Shown here in pieces: positions 1 to 41,619 of a stretch of DNA of 64,000 nt. This stretch comes from a virus. A program made the position numbers and the translations under genes. The stretch lies in the IMG/VR virus record IMGVR_UViG_3300020421_002402, positions 1 through 64,000 of that record. One strand, given 5' to 3'. The number at the start of each line of letters is the position of its first letter. Position 1 is the first letter of the stretch. Below the pieces are notes generated by a model. It worked only from the letters and a program-made list of their open reading frames with translations, had not been told where the DNA came from and made no database searches.

Positions 1-3000
1 TACAAGGTAGAAGAATTTATGGACGACATGATTTCAGACTTTGTCAACGAACGTGAAGATGACGAAGACTACATCAACGAATTTATAGAAAATGAAGGAA
101 TAGAAGAAACAGATTGGGATAGTTACAGAGAAGATGTTTTAAGAACAGAATATGGTGACGATAGATTTGAAGAAGAAGGTGTTGATGAACTGTCGGAAAT
201 ATATGGATACGAAGATGAAAATTGGGCAAGAGAGTATGTTGAAGCAGAACGAGGTCAGGACCTTAGAGATTATCTAAGAGAACTTGCAGAAGAAGACGAC
301 GATATAAAACAAGCGGCATACGAAGAAGCCAGTGAGAACTATGATTATGACGACTGGATCAGTGACCAATGGTACAGTATGAGTTCTTTCTGTGATGACA
401 TGGGTATAGATTACAGTTATGGAAACAACTTAGATGAAGTTGCTAGCCTTGTATCAAAATTTGTTAGAGAGAGTAGTGCTTTTTCAAGTGATGAAGTAGA
501 AAGTGGTGACTATGGTAACACCAGTGGTAGTACAGTAAATTATGCAGTAGAGTCAGACAGCAGTATTGACGGATATGGAACAGGTGCAGAAATTATATCA
601 CCAGTGTTTAGTACTCCAAGAAGAATGTTAGCAGAAATGAAAAAGTTTTTTGAGTTCTTAAAAAGCGAAGGAGCATCAACAAACAACAGTACTGGATTAC
701 ACATCACAATGAGTTACAATCCACAAGATGGTGAAACTGTAAACCATGAAGGTGGAAAAATAAAAGCAAACAGAGTAAAAATGGCTGTGTTGCTAGGAGA
801 CCAATACTTATTAAATGAATTTTTAAGAAGCAGTAACACTTACACCAAAAGTCAATACAAAGAATTACAAGATGCAGTTGGGTCACTAAAACAAGTATCA
901 GGCACTGAAGGCATTAAAAAAGCAGAAGCATTTTTAGACAAGGCTATCAGTGATGACAAATTCCGTGCTATACATTTTAAAGGTCAAAAAGATTCTGAAA
1001 CCAACACAAACTTAATAGAGTTTAGAATAGGCGGTGGAGAAGATTACGAAACAGACTTTGACAAAGTATTCAAAGCAACAGTAAGATATGCTACCACAAT
1101 GGTTGCTGGACACACAGACCAATATGAAGGTGATTATGTAAAAGCATTGTCCAAACTATTGCGTAAAGCAACTGATGTTGCACAAGGCGATGAACAAGAA
1201 GTTGGTGAACTCAAAGGCAGATATGAAGATGTTGCCAGCGATCCTGTACTAGACACATCTAAAGCAATAATTAGTTCTAAAAAATATTTAGAATTTACAA
1301 AACTTATGCTTAGAGGAATGGAAACATTAAAACAGGCTAGACTAAAATCAGAACCAGAAGCAGATGTTAAATGGAAAAAACAATGGATGGAATATCTTGA
1401 AGGTACAGGTAGTAGTTTAGATGAGTATGATAGTTCTTTAAGAAGAGCATTAGACAAAATTAAATACTCTAAAAGAGGTGGCGTTAAAGAAGCAGAAAAA
1501 AGAGATGGGCTTAAAGCATACCTCAGACCATCTTTGAATCCACCTAGCAAAGAAGTTGATGAAATGAGACAAGAGGGTATTAAGCATGTCAGTGAAGCAC
1601 TTGGAATGTTAGCAGTTGATGTTGGTAAAGGAACTGCAAGACAACAACCAAATGCAAAAAGCATTGGTGCTTTAAGAACCTTTTTGAAAAAAGAAAACAT
1701 CTCTGACAAACAATTAGACAACAACGTAAAACTGATATTAGATGATTTGAAAATAGACTCAGGTCTCACAGTTCAAAATAGAATACAACTTGTAAGTGAT
1801 GGTATGAACAAGATGTTGCAGAGAGAAGTAGTTACTAGACCAGACTTTGTAACTGCACCACAAGTTGAATCTGCTATTAAAGGCATGTGGAATGTGATGA
1901 ACAGTAAAGAGTTTAATCCTACTGTTTTAAAAGAACTTACCACACTTGGTATAGATGTTCGTGTAGGCAAAGATTCACAAGCCAATAAAACAGAAATAAT
2001 AGAAGATTTAAAAAGATTGTTTAAAGATGCAAGTGATAAAAGACAATTCAATGATTTTTATAATCATTTAACAAGTGCTGGATACAACAGTAGACCTTTC
2101 TTTTTAACACCAGGAATGATTTACAACAAACAAGGTTTTAATGATTTTGTACAATTTGTAAAACAGTTTGATTCTTACAGTGAACCAGTAAATAGAAATC
2201 ACAATCCAAACTTATATGATGATGACGGTTATGAAGATGTTGCATTAAGCAAATACACCATGTTATTGAGAAGAAGATTTGATTTTCTTGAACAACAATT
2301 TGAAACAGACCAATCAAAAGCAATTGAAAGTATGAAAAAGATGGTTCCTTTAATTACCAATTTTGCTAATACTAACCAATCAGAAGATACAGAATGGTCA
2401 AACATATTAGGAATTGACGCAGATGAAGTAAAAGATTTACCTAACATGTCAGATGAAGAAAAAGAAAACTTTATGGATTTACTTGGTAACAGAGATGCTG
2501 AAGAATATCTTGGTCTTAGAAGATACAGATATGAAAATGTCCAAAATGTACTAGATGATATTGTAAACGGTTCAAGTGACCGTAGAACTCTAATAAATTT
2601 ACAAGATTTTGTTACTGACACAATTAGAGAAATGTTGGGTAGTTATTACAGAAACAAAGAACGTTATCCAATGTATTATAAGTTTGATGAAGTTAAAAAT
2701 GTTATCAAAAGCAGATTTAAAGGTTTAAGTGAGTTTATGAAAGGAATAGACAAAATCTTTGTTGATAACGGATTTGATAGTCAAGACAGTTCAATTAAAC
2801 GTAAGCAACAACTGACCAAAGACAGAGATAACTTTAAGAAAACAATTCGTAACAGTTCGTATGCTACTATAAACATACCTGCACATTCTTTTACATATAT
2901 GAAAAAAAGTGATTATGAAAAAGTAAATGCATTTTATGACAACGCGGATTCAGATGAACAACCTGGTCGATACTTCTTGCAAGATATGATAAATGGGGCA

Positions 3001-11384: not shown

Positions 11385-11391
11385 ATAAATA
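11385..11391 (+). promoter_or_regulatory. T4-like late promoter element, 12 nt before ATG
   Basis: ATAAATA with its first A exactly 12 nt upstream of the ATG at 11397, the same geometry as at 8797, 20650, 26046, 27766, 33046 and 49434. Confidence 0.65.
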
Positions 11392-16882: not shown

Positions 16883-19189
16883 ATGCAAGTACAGAAAAGA
16901 GATGGGCGACTAGAAGATATTAACATCGATAAATTACACAAAGTCGTCATGTATGCCTGTGAAGACATAACTGGAGTAAGTGCTTCACAAGTTGAAATAA
17001 ATTCACAAATTCAATTCTACGATAAAATCAGTTCAGAAGATATTCAAGAAACAATTATTAAAAGTGCGGCTGACCTTATCAGTGAAGAAACACCAAACTA
17101 TCAATATGTAGCAGGACGTCTAATCAATTATCATTTGCGTAAAATGGTATACGGAACATTCGAACCACCTTGCTTATGTGATATTGTACAAGACAATATA
17201 GATGCAGGATTTTATGATTCTGAATTTACAGACTTGTTTACTAAAGATGAAATTAACGAATTACAAAGTTTTATAGACCATAGCAGAGATGAATATTTAA
17301 CTTATGCGGCTATGGAACAATTCCGTGGAAAGTACCTAGTACAAAATAGAGCAACAGGTGAAATATTTGAAACACCACAAGTTGCATACATGATGATTGC
17401 CGCAACATTGTTTGCAAAATATCCTGCTGACAAAAGAATGAAATACATTAAAGACTACTATGATGCAATTAGTAAGTTTTTAATTAGTTTGCCTACACCT
17501 GTAATGGCAGGTGTGAGAACACCACAAAGACAATTTAGCAGTTGTGTATTAATTGAAACAGATGATAGTTTAGATAGTATCAATGCAACAAGTAGCAGTA
17601 TAGTAAAATATGTGAGCCAAAAAGCAGGTATTGGAATTGGAGCAGGCAGAATAAGAGCAATTGGTTCTAAGATTAGGAGTGGAGACGCAACTCACACAGG
17701 AGTTATTCCCTTCTATAAATTATTCCAGTCTGCTGTAAAAAGTTGTTCACAAGGTGGTGTTAGAGGCGGAGCGGCTACACTATACTATCCAATTTGGCAC
17801 TTAGAAATTGAAGATATGTTAGTGCTTAAAAATAACAAAGGAACAGAAGACAATAGAGTACGTCATATGGACTATGGTGTACAGTTTAACAAATTAATGT
17901 ATGAAAGATTATTAGCAGGTGAAAACATCACATTATTCTCCCCACATGATGTTCCTGAAGTTTATGATGCTTTCTTTTCTGACCAGGATAAGTTTAAAGA
18001 AGTTTACGAAGCGGCAGAAAGAAAAACCAGCATTAGGAAAAAATCAATACCAGCAGTAGAACTTTTCAGTAACTTTGTTCAAGAAAGAAAAGACACTGGT
18101 AGAATTTATTTAATGAATGTTGACCATGCAAACACACATGGTTCTTTTATTGAGGACGTTGCCCCAATTAAACAAAGTAATTTATGTTGTGAAATTGACT
18201 TACCAACTAAACCTTTAACAAATATAGAAGATCCTAATGGTGAAATAAGTCTATGTACTTTGAGTGCAGTCAATTGGGGTGCCATTAAAAGTTTAGAGCA
18301 AATGGAAAAAGTATGCGACTTGGCTGTTAGAGCATTAGATGAATTATTAGATTATCAAGAATATCCTATTGAAGCGGCAAGACGTAGTACAATGAATAGA
18401 CGCCCATTAGGAATTGGTATTATTAATTTTGCATATTGGATGGCAAAAAATGATAGCACATATCAAGAACCAAACTTAGATATGGTAGACACTTGGACTG
18501 AAGCATGGAGTTATTACTTAATTAAAGCAAGTGCCGATTTGGCAGTAGAGAAAGGTGCATGTCCTAAGTCCAATGAAACTAAATACAGTTTGGGTATTAC
18601 TCCTAATCAAACATACAAAAAAGATGTTGACGAATTAGTGAAACATCAAGAACGTGCAGATTGGGAAAGTTTAAGAAAACAATTAAAAGAAACAGGTATT
18701 AGAAATAGTACACTAATGGCATTGATGCCTGCTGAAACATCAGCACAGATTAGTAACAGTACAAATGGTATTGAACCGCCAAGAAGTTATGTTAGTATTA
18801 AGCAAAGCAAACATGGTGTGTTAAAGCAAGTAGTACCTGGCTTCCCAAGATTAAAAAACAAGTATGATTTACTTTGGGACCAAAAGTCACCAGAGGGTTA
18901 TTTAAAGATTATGGCAATCCTACAAAAGTACATTGACCAAGGTATTTCGGTAAATACGTCATACAATCCAGAACACTTTGAAGATGAGAAAGTGCCTATG
19001 AGTATGTTGTTACAACACCTAGTAATGTTTTATAAATATGGTGGTAAACAATTATACTATAATAACACTCACGATGGACAAGGTGAGATTGATATAAACA
19101 AAGAAGAAACTGCTCAGGTGCAGTTTATAGAATCAAGTAATGTTTCTCCATTACTTGAAGATGATGATTGCGAGAGTTGTAAAATTTAA
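16883..19189 (+). CDS. nrdA: Ribonucleoside-diphosphate reductase, class Ia large subunit
   Basis: 768 residues, full length. It reduces ribonucleoside diphosphates to deoxynucleotides, supplying phage DNA synthesis. The N-terminus (VQKRDGRLEDINIDKLHKVV) is an ATP-cone allosteric domain. Active-site cysteines are visible in QFSSCVLIE, SNLCCEIDLP and ISLCTLSAVN, and the C-terminal CESCKI holds the redox-active Cys pair that is re-reduced by thioredoxin or glutaredoxin. The stop touches the nrdB ATG (TAATG). It is transcribed from its own strong sigma70-type promoter. Confidence 0.96.
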   Translation: MQVQKRDGRLEDINIDKLHKVVMYACEDITGVSASQVEINSQIQFYDKISSEDIQETIIKSAADLISEETPNYQYVAGRLINYHLRKMVYGTFEPPCLCDIVQDNIDAGFYDSEFTDLFTKDEINELQSFIDHSRDEYLTYAAMEQFRGKYLVQNRATGEIFETPQVAYMMIAATLFAKYPADKRMKYIKDYYDAISKFLISLPTPVMAGVRTPQRQFSSCVLIETDDSLDSINATSSSIVKYVSQKAGIGIGAGRIRAIGSKIRSGDATHTGVIPFYKLFQSAVKSCSQGGVRGGAATLYYPIWHLEIEDMLVLKNNKGTEDNRVRHMDYGVQFNKLMYERLLAGENITLFSPHDVPEVYDAFFSDQDKFKEVYEAAERKTSIRKKSIPAVELFSNFVQERKDTGRIYLMNVDHANTHGSFIEDVAPIKQSNLCCEIDLPTKPLTNIEDPNGEISLCTLSAVNWGAIKSLEQMEKVCDLAVRALDELLDYQEYPIEAARRSTMNRRPLGIGIINFAYWMAKNDSTYQEPNLDMVDTWTEAWSYYLIKASADLAVEKGACPKSNETKYSLGITPNQTYKKDVDELVKHQERADWESLRKQLKETGIRNSTLMALMPAETSAQISNSTNGIEPPRSYVSIKQSKHGVLKQVVPGFPRLKNKYDLLWDQKSPEGYLKIMAILQKYIDQGISVNTSYNPEHFEDEKVPMSMLLQHLVMFYKYGGKQLYYNNTHDGQGEIDINKEETAQVQFIESSNVSPLLEDDDCESCKI

Positions 19190-20286
19190 TGTCAGTATTT
19201 AATGCAAAAAATAAAAAACATCACACTAAAGCAAAGATGTTTTTGGATCCTAACGGTGGAGTTAATGTCCAACGATTTGATGTGGTTAAATACAAACAGT
19301 TTGAAAAATTAACTGAAAAACAACTGGGTTTCTTTTGGAGACCAGAAGAAGTTGATATCCTTAAAGATGCAAAAGACTTTAAAGAACTTACAGACTTTGA
19401 ACAACATATTTTTACAAGCAATTTAAAAAGACAAATTATATTAGATAGTGTACAAGGTCGTTCACCAAATTTAGCATTGTTGCCAGTAGTAAGTGTTCCT
19501 GAATTAGAAACATGGATTGAAACTTGGGCATTCTCAGAAACAATTCACAGTAGAAGTTACACGCATATTATTAGAAATGTGTACCCAGATCCTAGTAAAG
19601 TATTTGACAATATGTTAAACATTAAAGAAATTACAGATTGTTCAGATGCTATTACAGAAAACTACGACAAACTAATAGAACAAAATCAAGCAAGAGAACG
19701 TGGCTTACAAAGTTATGATGAATATGAACATAAGAAAGCATTGTATAAATGTATAATGAGTGTGAACATATTAGAAGGTGTACGTTTTTATGTTTCGTTT
19801 GCATGTAGTTGGGCATTTGCTGAACTTAAGAAAATGGAAGGTAATGCTAAAATTATCAAACTTATTGCTAGAGATGAAAATGTACACTTAGCAAGTACAC
19901 AACAAATGCTTAAAATACTTCCTCAAGATGATAAAGACTATGTAAAAATTGCAAAAGAGTTAAAAGAAGAATGTACGCAAATGTTTTTAGATGCAGTTGA
20001 ACAAGAAAAACAATGGGCAGACTATTTGTTCAAAGATGGCAGTATTATAGGACTAAATGCTGACTTACTTAAACAGTACATTGAATTTATTGCAGGCAAA
20101 AGAATGAGAGCAGTTCAATTAGAAACTCCTTTTAACACAGGCACAAATCCTTTACCTTGGACCCAAGCATGGATTACAGGTGGTAGTGTACAAGTTGCTC
20201 CTCAAGAAACTGAAATAAGTAGTTATGTTATTGGCGGTACAAAACAAGACGTTGATAACGATACTTTTAAAGGTTTTTCTCTTTAA
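19189..20286 (+). CDS. nrdB: Ribonucleoside-diphosphate reductase, class Ia small subunit
   Basis: 365 residues. It forms the diiron-tyrosyl radical partner of NrdA. The iron ligands and radical site fit the family: ETWAFSETIHSRSYTHII contains the Glu-x-x-His pair and the radical Tyr, and IARDENVHLASTQ supplies the second Glu-x-x-His set. Translation is coupled to nrdA by a one-base overlap. Iron need links it loosely to the ferritin-like and SUF genes elsewhere in the window. Confidence 0.96.
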   Translation: MSVFNAKNKKHHTKAKMFLDPNGGVNVQRFDVVKYKQFEKLTEKQLGFFWRPEEVDILKDAKDFKELTDFEQHIFTSNLKRQIILDSVQGRSPNLALLPVVSVPELETWIETWAFSETIHSRSYTHIIRNVYPDPSKVFDNMLNIKEITDCSDAITENYDKLIEQNQARERGLQSYDEYEHKKALYKCIMSVNILEGVRFYVSFACSWAFAELKKMEGNAKIIKLIARDENVHLASTQQMLKILPQDDKDYVKIAKELKEECTQMFLDAVEQEKQWADYLFKDGSIIGLNADLLKQYIEFIAGKRMRAVQLETPFNTGTNPLPWTQAWITGGSVQVAPQETEISSYVIGGTKQDVDNDTFKGFSL

Positions 20287-20303
20287 AAAACTCCCAAACT
20301 AGC

Positions 20304-20310
20304 ATAAATA
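20304..20310 (+). promoter_or_regulatory. T4-like late promoter element before the riboswitch
   Basis: ATAAATA whose predicted +1 (12 nt downstream, about 20316) falls on the first base pairs of the first aptamer at 20317. This supports the start-site geometry used elsewhere in the window. Confidence 0.6.
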
Positions 20311-20316
20311 ATTATA

Positions 20317-20375
20317 CGTTCATTCACTCTAAATGTAGCAGTGAACGGAAGTAGTCAATAGTGACGAAGGAACGC
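20317..20375 (+). promoter_or_regulatory. Glutamine riboswitch-like aptamer 1 (glnA / Downstream-peptide RNA motif)
   Basis: The closing stem pairs CGTTC (20317-20321) with GAACG (20370-20374); a CACT/AGTG hairpin lies inside; the conserved cores ACGGAAGTAG and CGAAGGAACGC are present. This matches my recollection of the glutamine aptamer consensus, known from cyanobacteria, their phages and marine metagenomes. Confidence 0.8.
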
Positions 20376-20380
20376 ATCTT

Positions 20381-20428
20381 CGTTCATCCTTAACAGGACG
20401 GAAGTAGGTGATAATACCGAAGGAACGC
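20381..20428 (+). promoter_or_regulatory. Glutamine riboswitch-like aptamer 2 and ribosome-site hairpin
   Basis: This is the second tandem copy, 53 nt after the first: CGTTC (20381-20385) pairs with GAACG (20423-20427), TCC/GGA forms the internal hairpin, and the cores ACGGAAGTAG and CGAAGGAACGC recur. Immediately downstream CATCTC (20428-20433) can pair with GAGATG (20441-20446), partly hiding the ribosome site of the peptide at 20450. C20428 follows the P1 strand, so ligand-dependent switching of that hairpin is plausible. Confidence 0.78.
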
Positions 20429-20449
20429 ATCTCATAATAGGAGATGTAA

Positions 20450-20611
20450 ATGACTAAGTATCAAGAAGCAGTACAAATCAAACGTGCTGTAAAAAAACAA
20501 CTTAAGAAAGAGCAAGGCAAAACAACTGGGTATATTTACAGAGGAGTTCGCTACGATAAAAGTAATAGTGACCTTCCTAATTATATAACAGACAATCCTT
20601 ACTATCCTTAA
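20450..20611 (+). CDS. 53-residue riboswitch-controlled peptide, DUF4278-like
   Basis: 53 residues with a basic N-terminal helix (QIKRAVKKQLKKEQGK) followed by YIYRGVRYDKS, which resembles the LTYRGVRY-type motif of DUF4278 proteins of cyanobacteria and cyanophages. Short peptides of this kind are the usual downstream genes of the Downstream-peptide RNA. The ribosome site taggag lies just upstream, inside a possible hairpin. A terminator follows directly. It may respond to glutamine, a signal of nitrogen status; its target is unknown. Confidence 0.75.
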   Translation: MTKYQEAVQIKRAVKKQLKKEQGKTTGYIYRGVRYDKSNSDLPNYITDNPYYP

Positions 20612-20618
20612 AGTAACT

Positions 20619-20648
20619 GAAAAGGGTCGGTAACGGCCCTTTTCTTTT
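20619..20648 (+). terminator. Rho-independent terminator
   Basis: AAAAGGG pairs with CCCTTTT around a tcggtaacgg loop, followed by a T-rich run. It ends the riboswitch-peptide transcript. Confidence 0.8.
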
Positions 20649-39675: not shown

Positions 39676-41619
39676 CTACCACCACTTACCGCCTTTGACC
39701 AGACCGTAACGTGGCAAACGACATGCCCAATAACCTGCCTTCATTTTGTCGTTTTTCTTTTCGCAATTATGTCTTGCGGCAAATGATTTTGCTCTTTTCT
39801 TGTTTCCTGATTTTGTTTTTAATCCTGCGTCACCAAAACTAATTTTTTTAACTCTGCCTGTTTTAGGATTTTTAACATAAACTTTATATTTTTTACCACC
39901 ACCTGAACTTCTTGTTGGCTTGTTGAGTTTTACTTTTTTGCCTTGATATTCTGCTTCGTTGGTAACACTTTCACCGGCATGCATAGCCGCCATGTGTTTT
40001 TTATATTTCTTTGTGCCTTTCTTGTGAGGTGATTTGCCTTCGTCAAAATCTTCCATGTCATTTAAGTTTATATGCTGTAATGCGTCTTCTATAACTTCAT
40101 TTGCACTGACAACATCTAACACTCTACCACTGGCAAAGTCTCCTATTGGTTGTCCGCCTACTTCCATTCTTGGATCAACAACATCTTCAACATGTAGTGC
40201 TTCTAGGTCTGAATACATTTTTGCTTCTAGGTCTTCTTTATTGTCTGCATACAAACCTGGTGATTCACCAAATGTATCTACTAGTTGTTGTACTACGGCA
40301 TCACGTATAATACTTCTTTCTTCACCTTCACTAATTGCGTCATTAAAAAGTTTAAAAGGATTAAATCCACCTTTCTTAGGTTCAGGAGGTCTTTCCATAG
40401 GCTTTGTTCCTCTCTTCACCCCTTTTTGCTTTAATTTTTTTCTTAGTTTATCACTAATATCTGCTGGGTGGTCTGGATTGTCTTTATCTAATGAATAGTA
40501 TCCAGGGCCTTTAAGTCCTTTGACTAAATCTTTTATACCTTCTTCTAATTGTACTTTGTAAACAATCTTAGCAATTTTGGCAATGTCATCTGCTAGTGCT
40601 GGATTTTCACTTTCTAATTCTGAAAATAATTCTTGTGGTGAATATTTTGACCAATCCTTTTTCATTAATGCTCTACCAAGTATTTTTCCTACTGCATTTT
40701 CTTCTGGTGTGTTGTATGATTTAATCATTGGTAAATCATCTAGTTCACGTGCTGATTTCCAATCCATATCCATTACACCTTCACCAAATGCCATTTTAGA
40801 TGCTTTACCTAATATTTCACTTCGTTGTCCTCTACCCATGTGTGGGAAGTCTGCCTGCATTTGTTGATATGCCATTCTAGGATCATCCATTCGTTTCATA
40901 TAACTAGCAACTTGTTTAATAACTTCTTCGTCACCTGGATATTCGTCTCTTGATTTTTTTCTTTGTGCATTACCTTCGTCATGCTTTGTTATCTCTACCC
41001 AACTAGGTTGACCATTACCATAAGTCATTTCACCTTCATCACAACCATAGTTGCCAAAGCCATCGCACTCTGAACTTTCTTCCTCTTCACCGTCATCATT
41101 GGTAAATGTTTCTTCACCGTCCATGTAACCTGAACCACCACATGCTGGACAATCGCCATCTTTGATATAGTCGTCCATGTAATTGCCTTGTAGTGCATCT
41201 TGTAAATCGTTAAATGCTTCTGTTCTTTCTTCAGCATCATAGTAATCATCAGGCTCGCCAATCATTCCTCGTTCTGCTTCGTCTTCATCTTCTATTAAGT
41301 ATGGAATATCTAGCCAAACTTTTTCACCACCTTTAAGTGTTACCTGTTCGCCTATGTCTGTGGCAAGCATTTCTTCACTTTCCCAATCAAGTTCAGGTAA
41401 AGATCCTGCTTCACGTAATTTTTTTGCTAGTTGGAATGTTTCGATGTATGCTTTACTACCATGTCTAAAAGGACTATCACATAGTGCAGTACCTTCATTT
41501 ACATGTGTTGCTAATGCTTGAAGTGATTCATTTATAGACTCTTCTTTGTTTACAGAAACACTTTCTGTGATTTGTGATGAGAGTTTATTTTTATCTGCTG
41601 TAAAATCGAATAGTTTCAT
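39676..41619 (-). CDS. Large virion-associated protein with zinc-ribbon and DUF5872-like C-terminus
   Basis: 647 residues. It has a CPACGGSGYMDGE segment with further Cys residues (DnaJ-like ribbon), a helical middle with MAYQQMQADFPHMGRGQRSE, and a basic C-terminal module of which FAARHNCEKKNDKMKAGYWA is the core; the latter resembles DUF5872-type ends. This is a mosaic of modules found in marine phage structural proteins. The initiating ATG is 13 nt after a late element, with no ribosome site between. Confidence 0.6.
   Translation of the reverse strand: MKLFDFTADKNKLSSQITESVSVNKEESINESLQALATHVNEGTALCDSPFRHGSKAYIETFQLAKKLREAGSLPELDWESEEMLATDIGEQVTLKGGEKVWLDIPYLIEDEDEAERGMIGEPDDYYDAEERTEAFNDLQDALQGNYMDDYIKDGDCPACGGSGYMDGEETFTNDDGEEEESSECDGFGNYGCDEGEMTYGNGQPSWVEITKHDEGNAQRKKSRDEYPGDEEVIKQVASYMKRMDDPRMAYQQMQADFPHMGRGQRSEILGKASKMAFGEGVMDMDWKSARELDDLPMIKSYNTPEENAVGKILGRALMKKDWSKYSPQELFSELESENPALADDIAKIAKIVYKVQLEEGIKDLVKGLKGPGYYSLDKDNPDHPADISDKLRKKLKQKGVKRGTKPMERPPEPKKGGFNPFKLFNDAISEGEERSIIRDAVVQQLVDTFGESPGLYADNKEDLEAKMYSDLEALHVEDVVDPRMEVGGQPIGDFASGRVLDVVSANEVIEDALQHINLNDMEDFDEGKSPHKKGTKKYKKHMAAMHAGESVTNEAEYQGKKVKLNKPTRSSGGGKKYKVYVKNPKTGRVKKISFGDAGLKTKSGNKKRAKSFAARHNCEKKNDKMKAGYWACRLPRYGLVKGGKWW

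Follow-up and report, generated by a model that had tools for sequence, protein, structure and literature searches.

Several known systems are close to the one analysed here. In Synechocystis, the gifB leader carries a single type-1 glutamine aptamer (glnA motif, RF01739) and controls the glutamine synthetase (GS) inactivating factor IF17, whose N-terminal part is DUF4278; glutamine activates both gifB and a Prochlorococcus riboswitch, and known members of both glutamine riboswitch types are activating switches (PMC6316151). The type-2, or Downstream-peptide, riboswitch (RF01704) likewise places short ORFs under glutamine control. A glnA-type riboswitch was reported in the marine T4-like phages Melnitz (an OM43 phage) and Mosig (a Pelagibacter phage), where it was assigned to the tmRNA region with no peptide noted (PMC9004378). 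In Prochlorococcus phage P-TIM68 (KM359505 ~193960-194233; L284 1490-1765), a glutamine aptamer with a weak RF01739 match (35.4 bits) precedes a 47-aa YRG-motif peptide annotated as hypothetical, and a second, divergent copy before the first was seen by eye. Glutamine doublets have been listed as pseudo-cooperative with multiple platforms (157 doublets classified; PMC9481103), and the tandem glycine riboswitch joins two like aptamers to one expression platform.

We analysed a 64,000-nt stretch of viral DNA (the window), part of a 110-kb virus record. Its glutamine riboswitch shares the aptamer family with gifB and, like it, would place a small basic protein under translation-level control, with a DUF4278-type motif in some relatives of the window peptide (family A). 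Unlike gifB, the window has a doublet, a phage late promoter, another peptide family and non-cyanobacterial relatives (SAR86). It resembles Melnitz and Mosig as a marine T4-like phage with a glnA-type riboswitch and differs from them in that its doublet would drive a peptide from a late promoter; an ARAGORN scan of 16 loci found no tmRNA, and a tmRNA link of the viral units was rejected. P-TIM68 differs in its divergent aptamers and its peptide, and no late-promoter motif was seen there. The architecture is that of the tandem glycine riboswitch, but the ligand is different, the contact here would be linker/P3 base pairing, and cooperativity is putative.

The covariance-model search with RF01739 (gathering cut-off 35 bits) returned two abutting matches in the window, both far above the curated cut-off (Table 1). 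The initial annotation had proposed tandem aptamers of a glnA/Downstream-peptide motif; the tandem and its glnA identity were recovered, and the Downstream-peptide label was discarded, because the RNA is of the type-1 glnA class and a window search with RF01704 gave nothing at the gathering score. The ACGGAAGTAG repeats (spacing 53 nt), the two copies of CGAAGGAACGC and the CGTTC/GAACG closing stems were all confirmed as that annotation had described them. Single-sequence folding of the leader did not recover the aptamer fold and gave a competing hairpin that spans both aptamers.

Table 1. Features of the glutamine riboswitch cassette (window coordinates)
Feature	Position	Strand	Basis or score
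T4-type late promoter core CATAAATA	20303-20310	+	sequence; predicted +1 about 20316
Glutamine riboswitch aptamer 1 (RF01739)	20315-20378	+	54.8 bits, E 2.6e-9
Closing stem of aptamer 1, CGTTC/GAACG	20317-20321/20370-20374		
ACGGAAGTAG, two copies	20345 and 20398		
Tail 1 / linker CATCTT between aptamers	20375-20380	+	sequence complementarity
Glutamine riboswitch aptamer 2 (RF01739)	20379-20431	+	62.1 bits, E 2.6e-11
Closing stem of aptamer 2, CGTTC/GAACG	20381-20385/20423-20427		
P3 hairpin of aptamer 2 (GGTGATAATACC)	20407-20418	+	sequence
Shine-Dalgarno (SD)-sequestering hairpin CAUCUC/GAGAUG (expression platform)	20428-20446	+	folding energy and covariation in relatives
Shine-Dalgarno GGAG inside platform hairpin	20440-20443	+	sequence
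53-aa basic peptide ORF (family A)	20450-20611	+	53 codons
Intrinsic terminator	20619-20644	+	-18.3 kcal/mol

The cassette is flanked by nrdB (19189-20286) and a gene for a PAAR protein. Its terminator, which falls outside the interval first annotated (20304-20611), makes it monocistronic. We read it as a self-contained late-gene unit of a T4-like marine phage, in which a late promoter precedes two type-1 glutamine aptamers, followed by a single SD-sequestering hairpin, a peptide that is small and basic, and a terminator. At the sequence level, the RNA with its late-promoter, translational-control layout is well supported. Elsewhere in the window, one large phage ORF (5811-7337) has only partial PHROG matches, one of them ParB-like and, beside it, one to a superoxide dismutase-like domain; another (39676-41619) has only a partial PHROG match to a protein of unknown function.

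The promoter core is a TATAAATA-like late-promoter box of the T4 type. T4 spacing, which we assume to apply here, puts the +1 one base 5' of the aptamer 1 P1 stem, so that transcription would start at aptamer 1. TAAATA was present within 45 nt upstream in 73/73 distinct viral doublets with enough upstream sequence, compared with only 2/49 cellular doublets (background 2.3%); it lay mostly 6-7 nt from P1, or 21-25 nt away with a small 5' hairpin between. Viral single-aptamer units were mostly without it (3/35 have it). Within the window, 17 of 29 ATAAATA sites are intergenic, in the 4.3% of sequence between ORFs, usually 12-60 nt before an ORF. This enrichment, together with the T4-type clamp loader encoded by the virus record, is consistent with T4-type late transcription. 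These results agree with the late promoter first proposed at this site, with its predicted +1 at the first stem. ATAAATA boxes at window positions 11385, 26046, 27766 and 49434 lie only ~12 nt before an ATG, and late transcripts from them may be leaderless.

The hairpin that directly follows aptamer 2 covers the ribosome site, as had been noted from the sequence, and has an energy of -6.1 kcal/mol (z -3.1) when folded by itself. Immediately 3' of the final aptamer, tail/SD-region pairings such as CAUCU/AGAUG, CAAUC/GAUUG, CACCU/GGGUG, CACUU/GAGUG and CAUUU/GAAUG were found, with at least 4 pairs in 43/44 distinct platforms. C-G occupies pair 1 without exception, the hairpin begins with an invariant C (43/43), pairs 3-5 covary on both sides (U-A/C-G/A-U; C-G/U-A), and 0/5000 shuffles reached the level of pairing observed in relatives. 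A G23-C60 pair at the P1 base, which depends on the ligand, closes the glutamine aptamer (PMC11477058). From its position, the first tail C is likely this C60, the 'linchpin' C of the aptamer; if so, the ligand would compete with pair 1 of the SD hairpin, and activation is predicted. Without glutamine, the tail CAUCUC after aptamer 2 would pair with the SD and keep translation off; with glutamine bound, its first C would be pulled into the aptamer as a linchpin pair below P1, the hairpin would open and translation would start.

The linker between the aptamers measures 6 nt in the window and 6-17 nt in relatives and contains neither terminator nor SD; it is too short for either, which leaves aptamer 1 without a separate platform. 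The window thus holds two like aptamers with one expression platform, the arrangement of cooperative tandem aptamers. Both aptamers would have to act via this platform, and sharing it would give a steeper glutamine response. In 49/86 distinct arrays (~57%), tail 1 could form 5-7 bp with the P3 of aptamer 2, in its 5' arm and loop, as in CAUUAUC/GGUAAUG, with changed pairs in CAUUG/CAAUG, UAUUA/UAAUA and CAUUAC/GUAAUG. In the CATT/TATT class, this register is distinct from 1-2 nt slides and was reached by 0/5000 shuffles, the sequences there being related; over all arrays the pairing is modest (71/5000 shuffles). Since it would exclude P3, the pairing would be a switch rather than a tertiary contact. 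In the window's own class (tail CAUCUUC; 13/86 arrays), tail 1 (CATCTT plus the next C) has only a weak 4-bp match to the aptamer 2 P3 arm and a 7-bp match to the SD; the latter match occurs in 13/13 arrays, but about 70% of swapped pairs also match, and it was rejected as covariation evidence. Six doublets (L007, L023, L029, L057, L062, L119; linkers CCGAAC, CACTGAAC, TACTGAAC or CCACATT) have no tail-1/P3 pairing, and their linkers often repeat GAAC, the P1 3' strand.

These observations suggest, at the level of sequence comparison, that the two aptamers work as a single coupled switch and not independently; for the family as a whole this is a good hypothesis, for the window's own array a weaker one. 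The published view (PMC9481103) would instead have two riboswitches whose effects merely add up, and it has behind it the classification of 157 doublets and the intact cores of both window aptamers. We consider it doubtful, because a linker without terminator or ribosome site leaves aptamer 1 platform-less, which argues against multiple platforms, and because tail 1 covaries with the aptamer 2 P3 arm in the CATT/TATT class. A more elaborate form of coupling is possible, and we put it forward tentatively: the tail of unliganded aptamer 1 would pair with the aptamer 2 P3 arm and hold aptamer 2 unfolded, glutamine at aptamer 1 would free aptamer 2, and glutamine at aptamer 2 would free the ribosome site. 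This AND-type gate and its peptide would have been taken by T4-like marine phages from streamlined hosts and rewired to late transcription, and in the window's class both tails would instead compete for the SD. As to direction, glutamine could also switch the peptide off by stabilising P1 stacked directly on the SD hairpin, so that the peptide would be made in nitrogen starvation. Coaxial stacking is feasible, as the P1 3' strand adjoins the hairpin in all platforms with no spacer between GAACG and CAUCU; the invariant first hairpin C nevertheless fits a linchpin C claimed by the ligand-bound aptamer, activation is the behaviour known for both glutamine riboswitch types (PMC6316151), and an OFF switch is unlikely. 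We infer from the G23-C60 pair (PMC11477058) and from the activation of gifB and the Prochlorococcus riboswitch (PMC6316151) that glutamine likely turns translation on.

About 120 viral doublets were identified (117 stretches by exact tandem-aptamer scan of IMG/VR and 3 with a relaxed core), and bacterial genomes contained 53 doublet stretches, mostly SAR86, with others in SAR92, SAR116, Burkholderiales-type and Pelagibacterales records. The Rfam re-scan confirmed two aptamers in 7/7 doublet loci re-scanned. A downstream ORF was readable in 134 of 141 distinct viral units, single or double, and led to a 23-67 aa peptide in 134/134; the ORF search takes the first SD-supported start and leans towards short ORFs, so the argument rests on family conservation rather than on ORF length. 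The proposed control of the 53-aa peptide fits these data, its ORF lying behind the aptamers and the SD hairpin and all 134 viral units leading to ORFs of at most 67 aa. On the viral contig of one doublet (L006), a freshwater-2 RNA (RF02980, 70 bits) lies at 2004-2087 (-). A second peptide family (W..YCR, 31-50 aa) occurs behind glutamine riboswitches in viruses and Burkholderiales-type (OM43-like) genomes (L006, L034, L223, L231, L242, L252).

Family A has 45 distinct members with the pattern MTKYQ...RAVKK...LPxYITDNPxYP, the invariant residues MT...P.Y...NP.Y, a net charge of +5 to +9 and a pN/pS of 0.50; values of 0.2-0.5 among the riboswitch peptides indicate purifying selection, and family conservation rules out a chance explanation for them. 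A terminator lies within 80 nt of the stop in 36/45 members, compared with 6/300 in the control. Structure prediction gave a confident N-terminal helix (residues 3-24) and a low-confidence remainder. Searches of Pfam, PHROG, NCBIfam and PDB returned no match to family A, and tblastn found neither family A nor another peptide family in phage isolates, where low-complexity filtering may hide some. The window peptide had been called DUF4278-like; the Pfam search gave no match to PF14105 at E<=1, and the likeness is at motif level, in that YRGVRY occurs in members close to the window's version. Real matches to PF14105 (DUF4278) were obtained for YRG-repeat peptides that follow other riboswitches of this kind. 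The proposed comparison with GS inactivating peptides showed a likeness in size and basic charge, plus the DUF4278 motif that some members have, and nothing beyond that; no match in the family-database and PDB searches ties family A to IF7/IF17.

In five SAR86 loci (L203, L214, L219, L238, L251), family A follows a doublet whose linker (CATCTT) is that of the window and whose P3 is near-identical; the late motif is absent, and in loci with enough flanking sequence the neighbours are chromosomal genes. Across the SAR86 order, RF01739 scored above cut-off in 59/151 genomes and family A was rare (5/151); in the searched genomes G001-G005, no glutamine riboswitch other than the peptide doublet passed the family cut-off. 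In 10/10 carrier genomes, which may be incomplete, no GlnE was detected, while PII was found in all ten, so another restraint on glutamine synthesis is plausible. OM43-type and Pelagibacterales carriers have GS-I and SAR86 appears to have a short GSII-like synthetase, with the same caution on completeness, which means that inhibition of the GS-I type cannot hold generally. A phage tRNA gave no host assignment, as it does not discriminate between hosts. Eight other SAR86 doublets (L204, L215, L225, L229, L232, L236, L244, L247), which differ in linker type and lack the viral kind of SD hairpin, lie upstream of large TonB-dependent-receptor-looking ORFs; L205, L208 and L218 show further aptamer copies, and a SAR116 doublet (L212) lies ~90 nt upstream of an ammonium-transporter-looking ORF.

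The viral peptide would be a version of the SAR86-type peptide produced in nitrogen excess. Its likely job would be to restrain ammonium assimilation by the host at a late stage of infection, once glutamine suffices, with glutamine synthetase or PII as partner; a role in nitrogen control is a reasoned guess, and we infer the target and the host within it. Two other explanations of the cassette were weighed. One takes it for a degenerate host leader acquired by chance and functionless in the phage. In one virus (L057), the order nrdA-nrdB-riboswitch-peptide is that of the window (79% and 74% identity). In most other viruses the neighbours differ, as a passenger would allow; purifying selection, SD-hairpin covariation, the constant late promoter and the terminators all speak against it, and we regard it as very improbable. 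The other makes the peptide a structural or lysis-timing late protein, with glutamine reporting the end of protein synthesis rather than controlling nitrogen assimilation, a signal speculated on for phage Melnitz (PMC9004378). The late promoter of all viral doublets fits this proposal, but SAR86 chromosomes hold the same peptide and switch among housekeeping genes, and it seems quite unlikely. The aptamers, cassette order, late-promoter placement, covarying SD hairpin, coding family and SAR86 homologues are read from the sequences themselves. The whole explanation, a late cassette with an ON glutamine gate and a nitrogen-control peptide, is in our judgement moderately probable.

These results suggest that marine T4-like phages sample host nitrogen status with a two-aptamer RNA that would gate a late-expressed peptide also present in SAR86. 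Glutamine doublets, published as independent 'pseudo-cooperative' pairs, become testable as a coupled switch with a single platform, and dozens of viral peptides lacking annotation become candidate regulators of host nitrogen metabolism.
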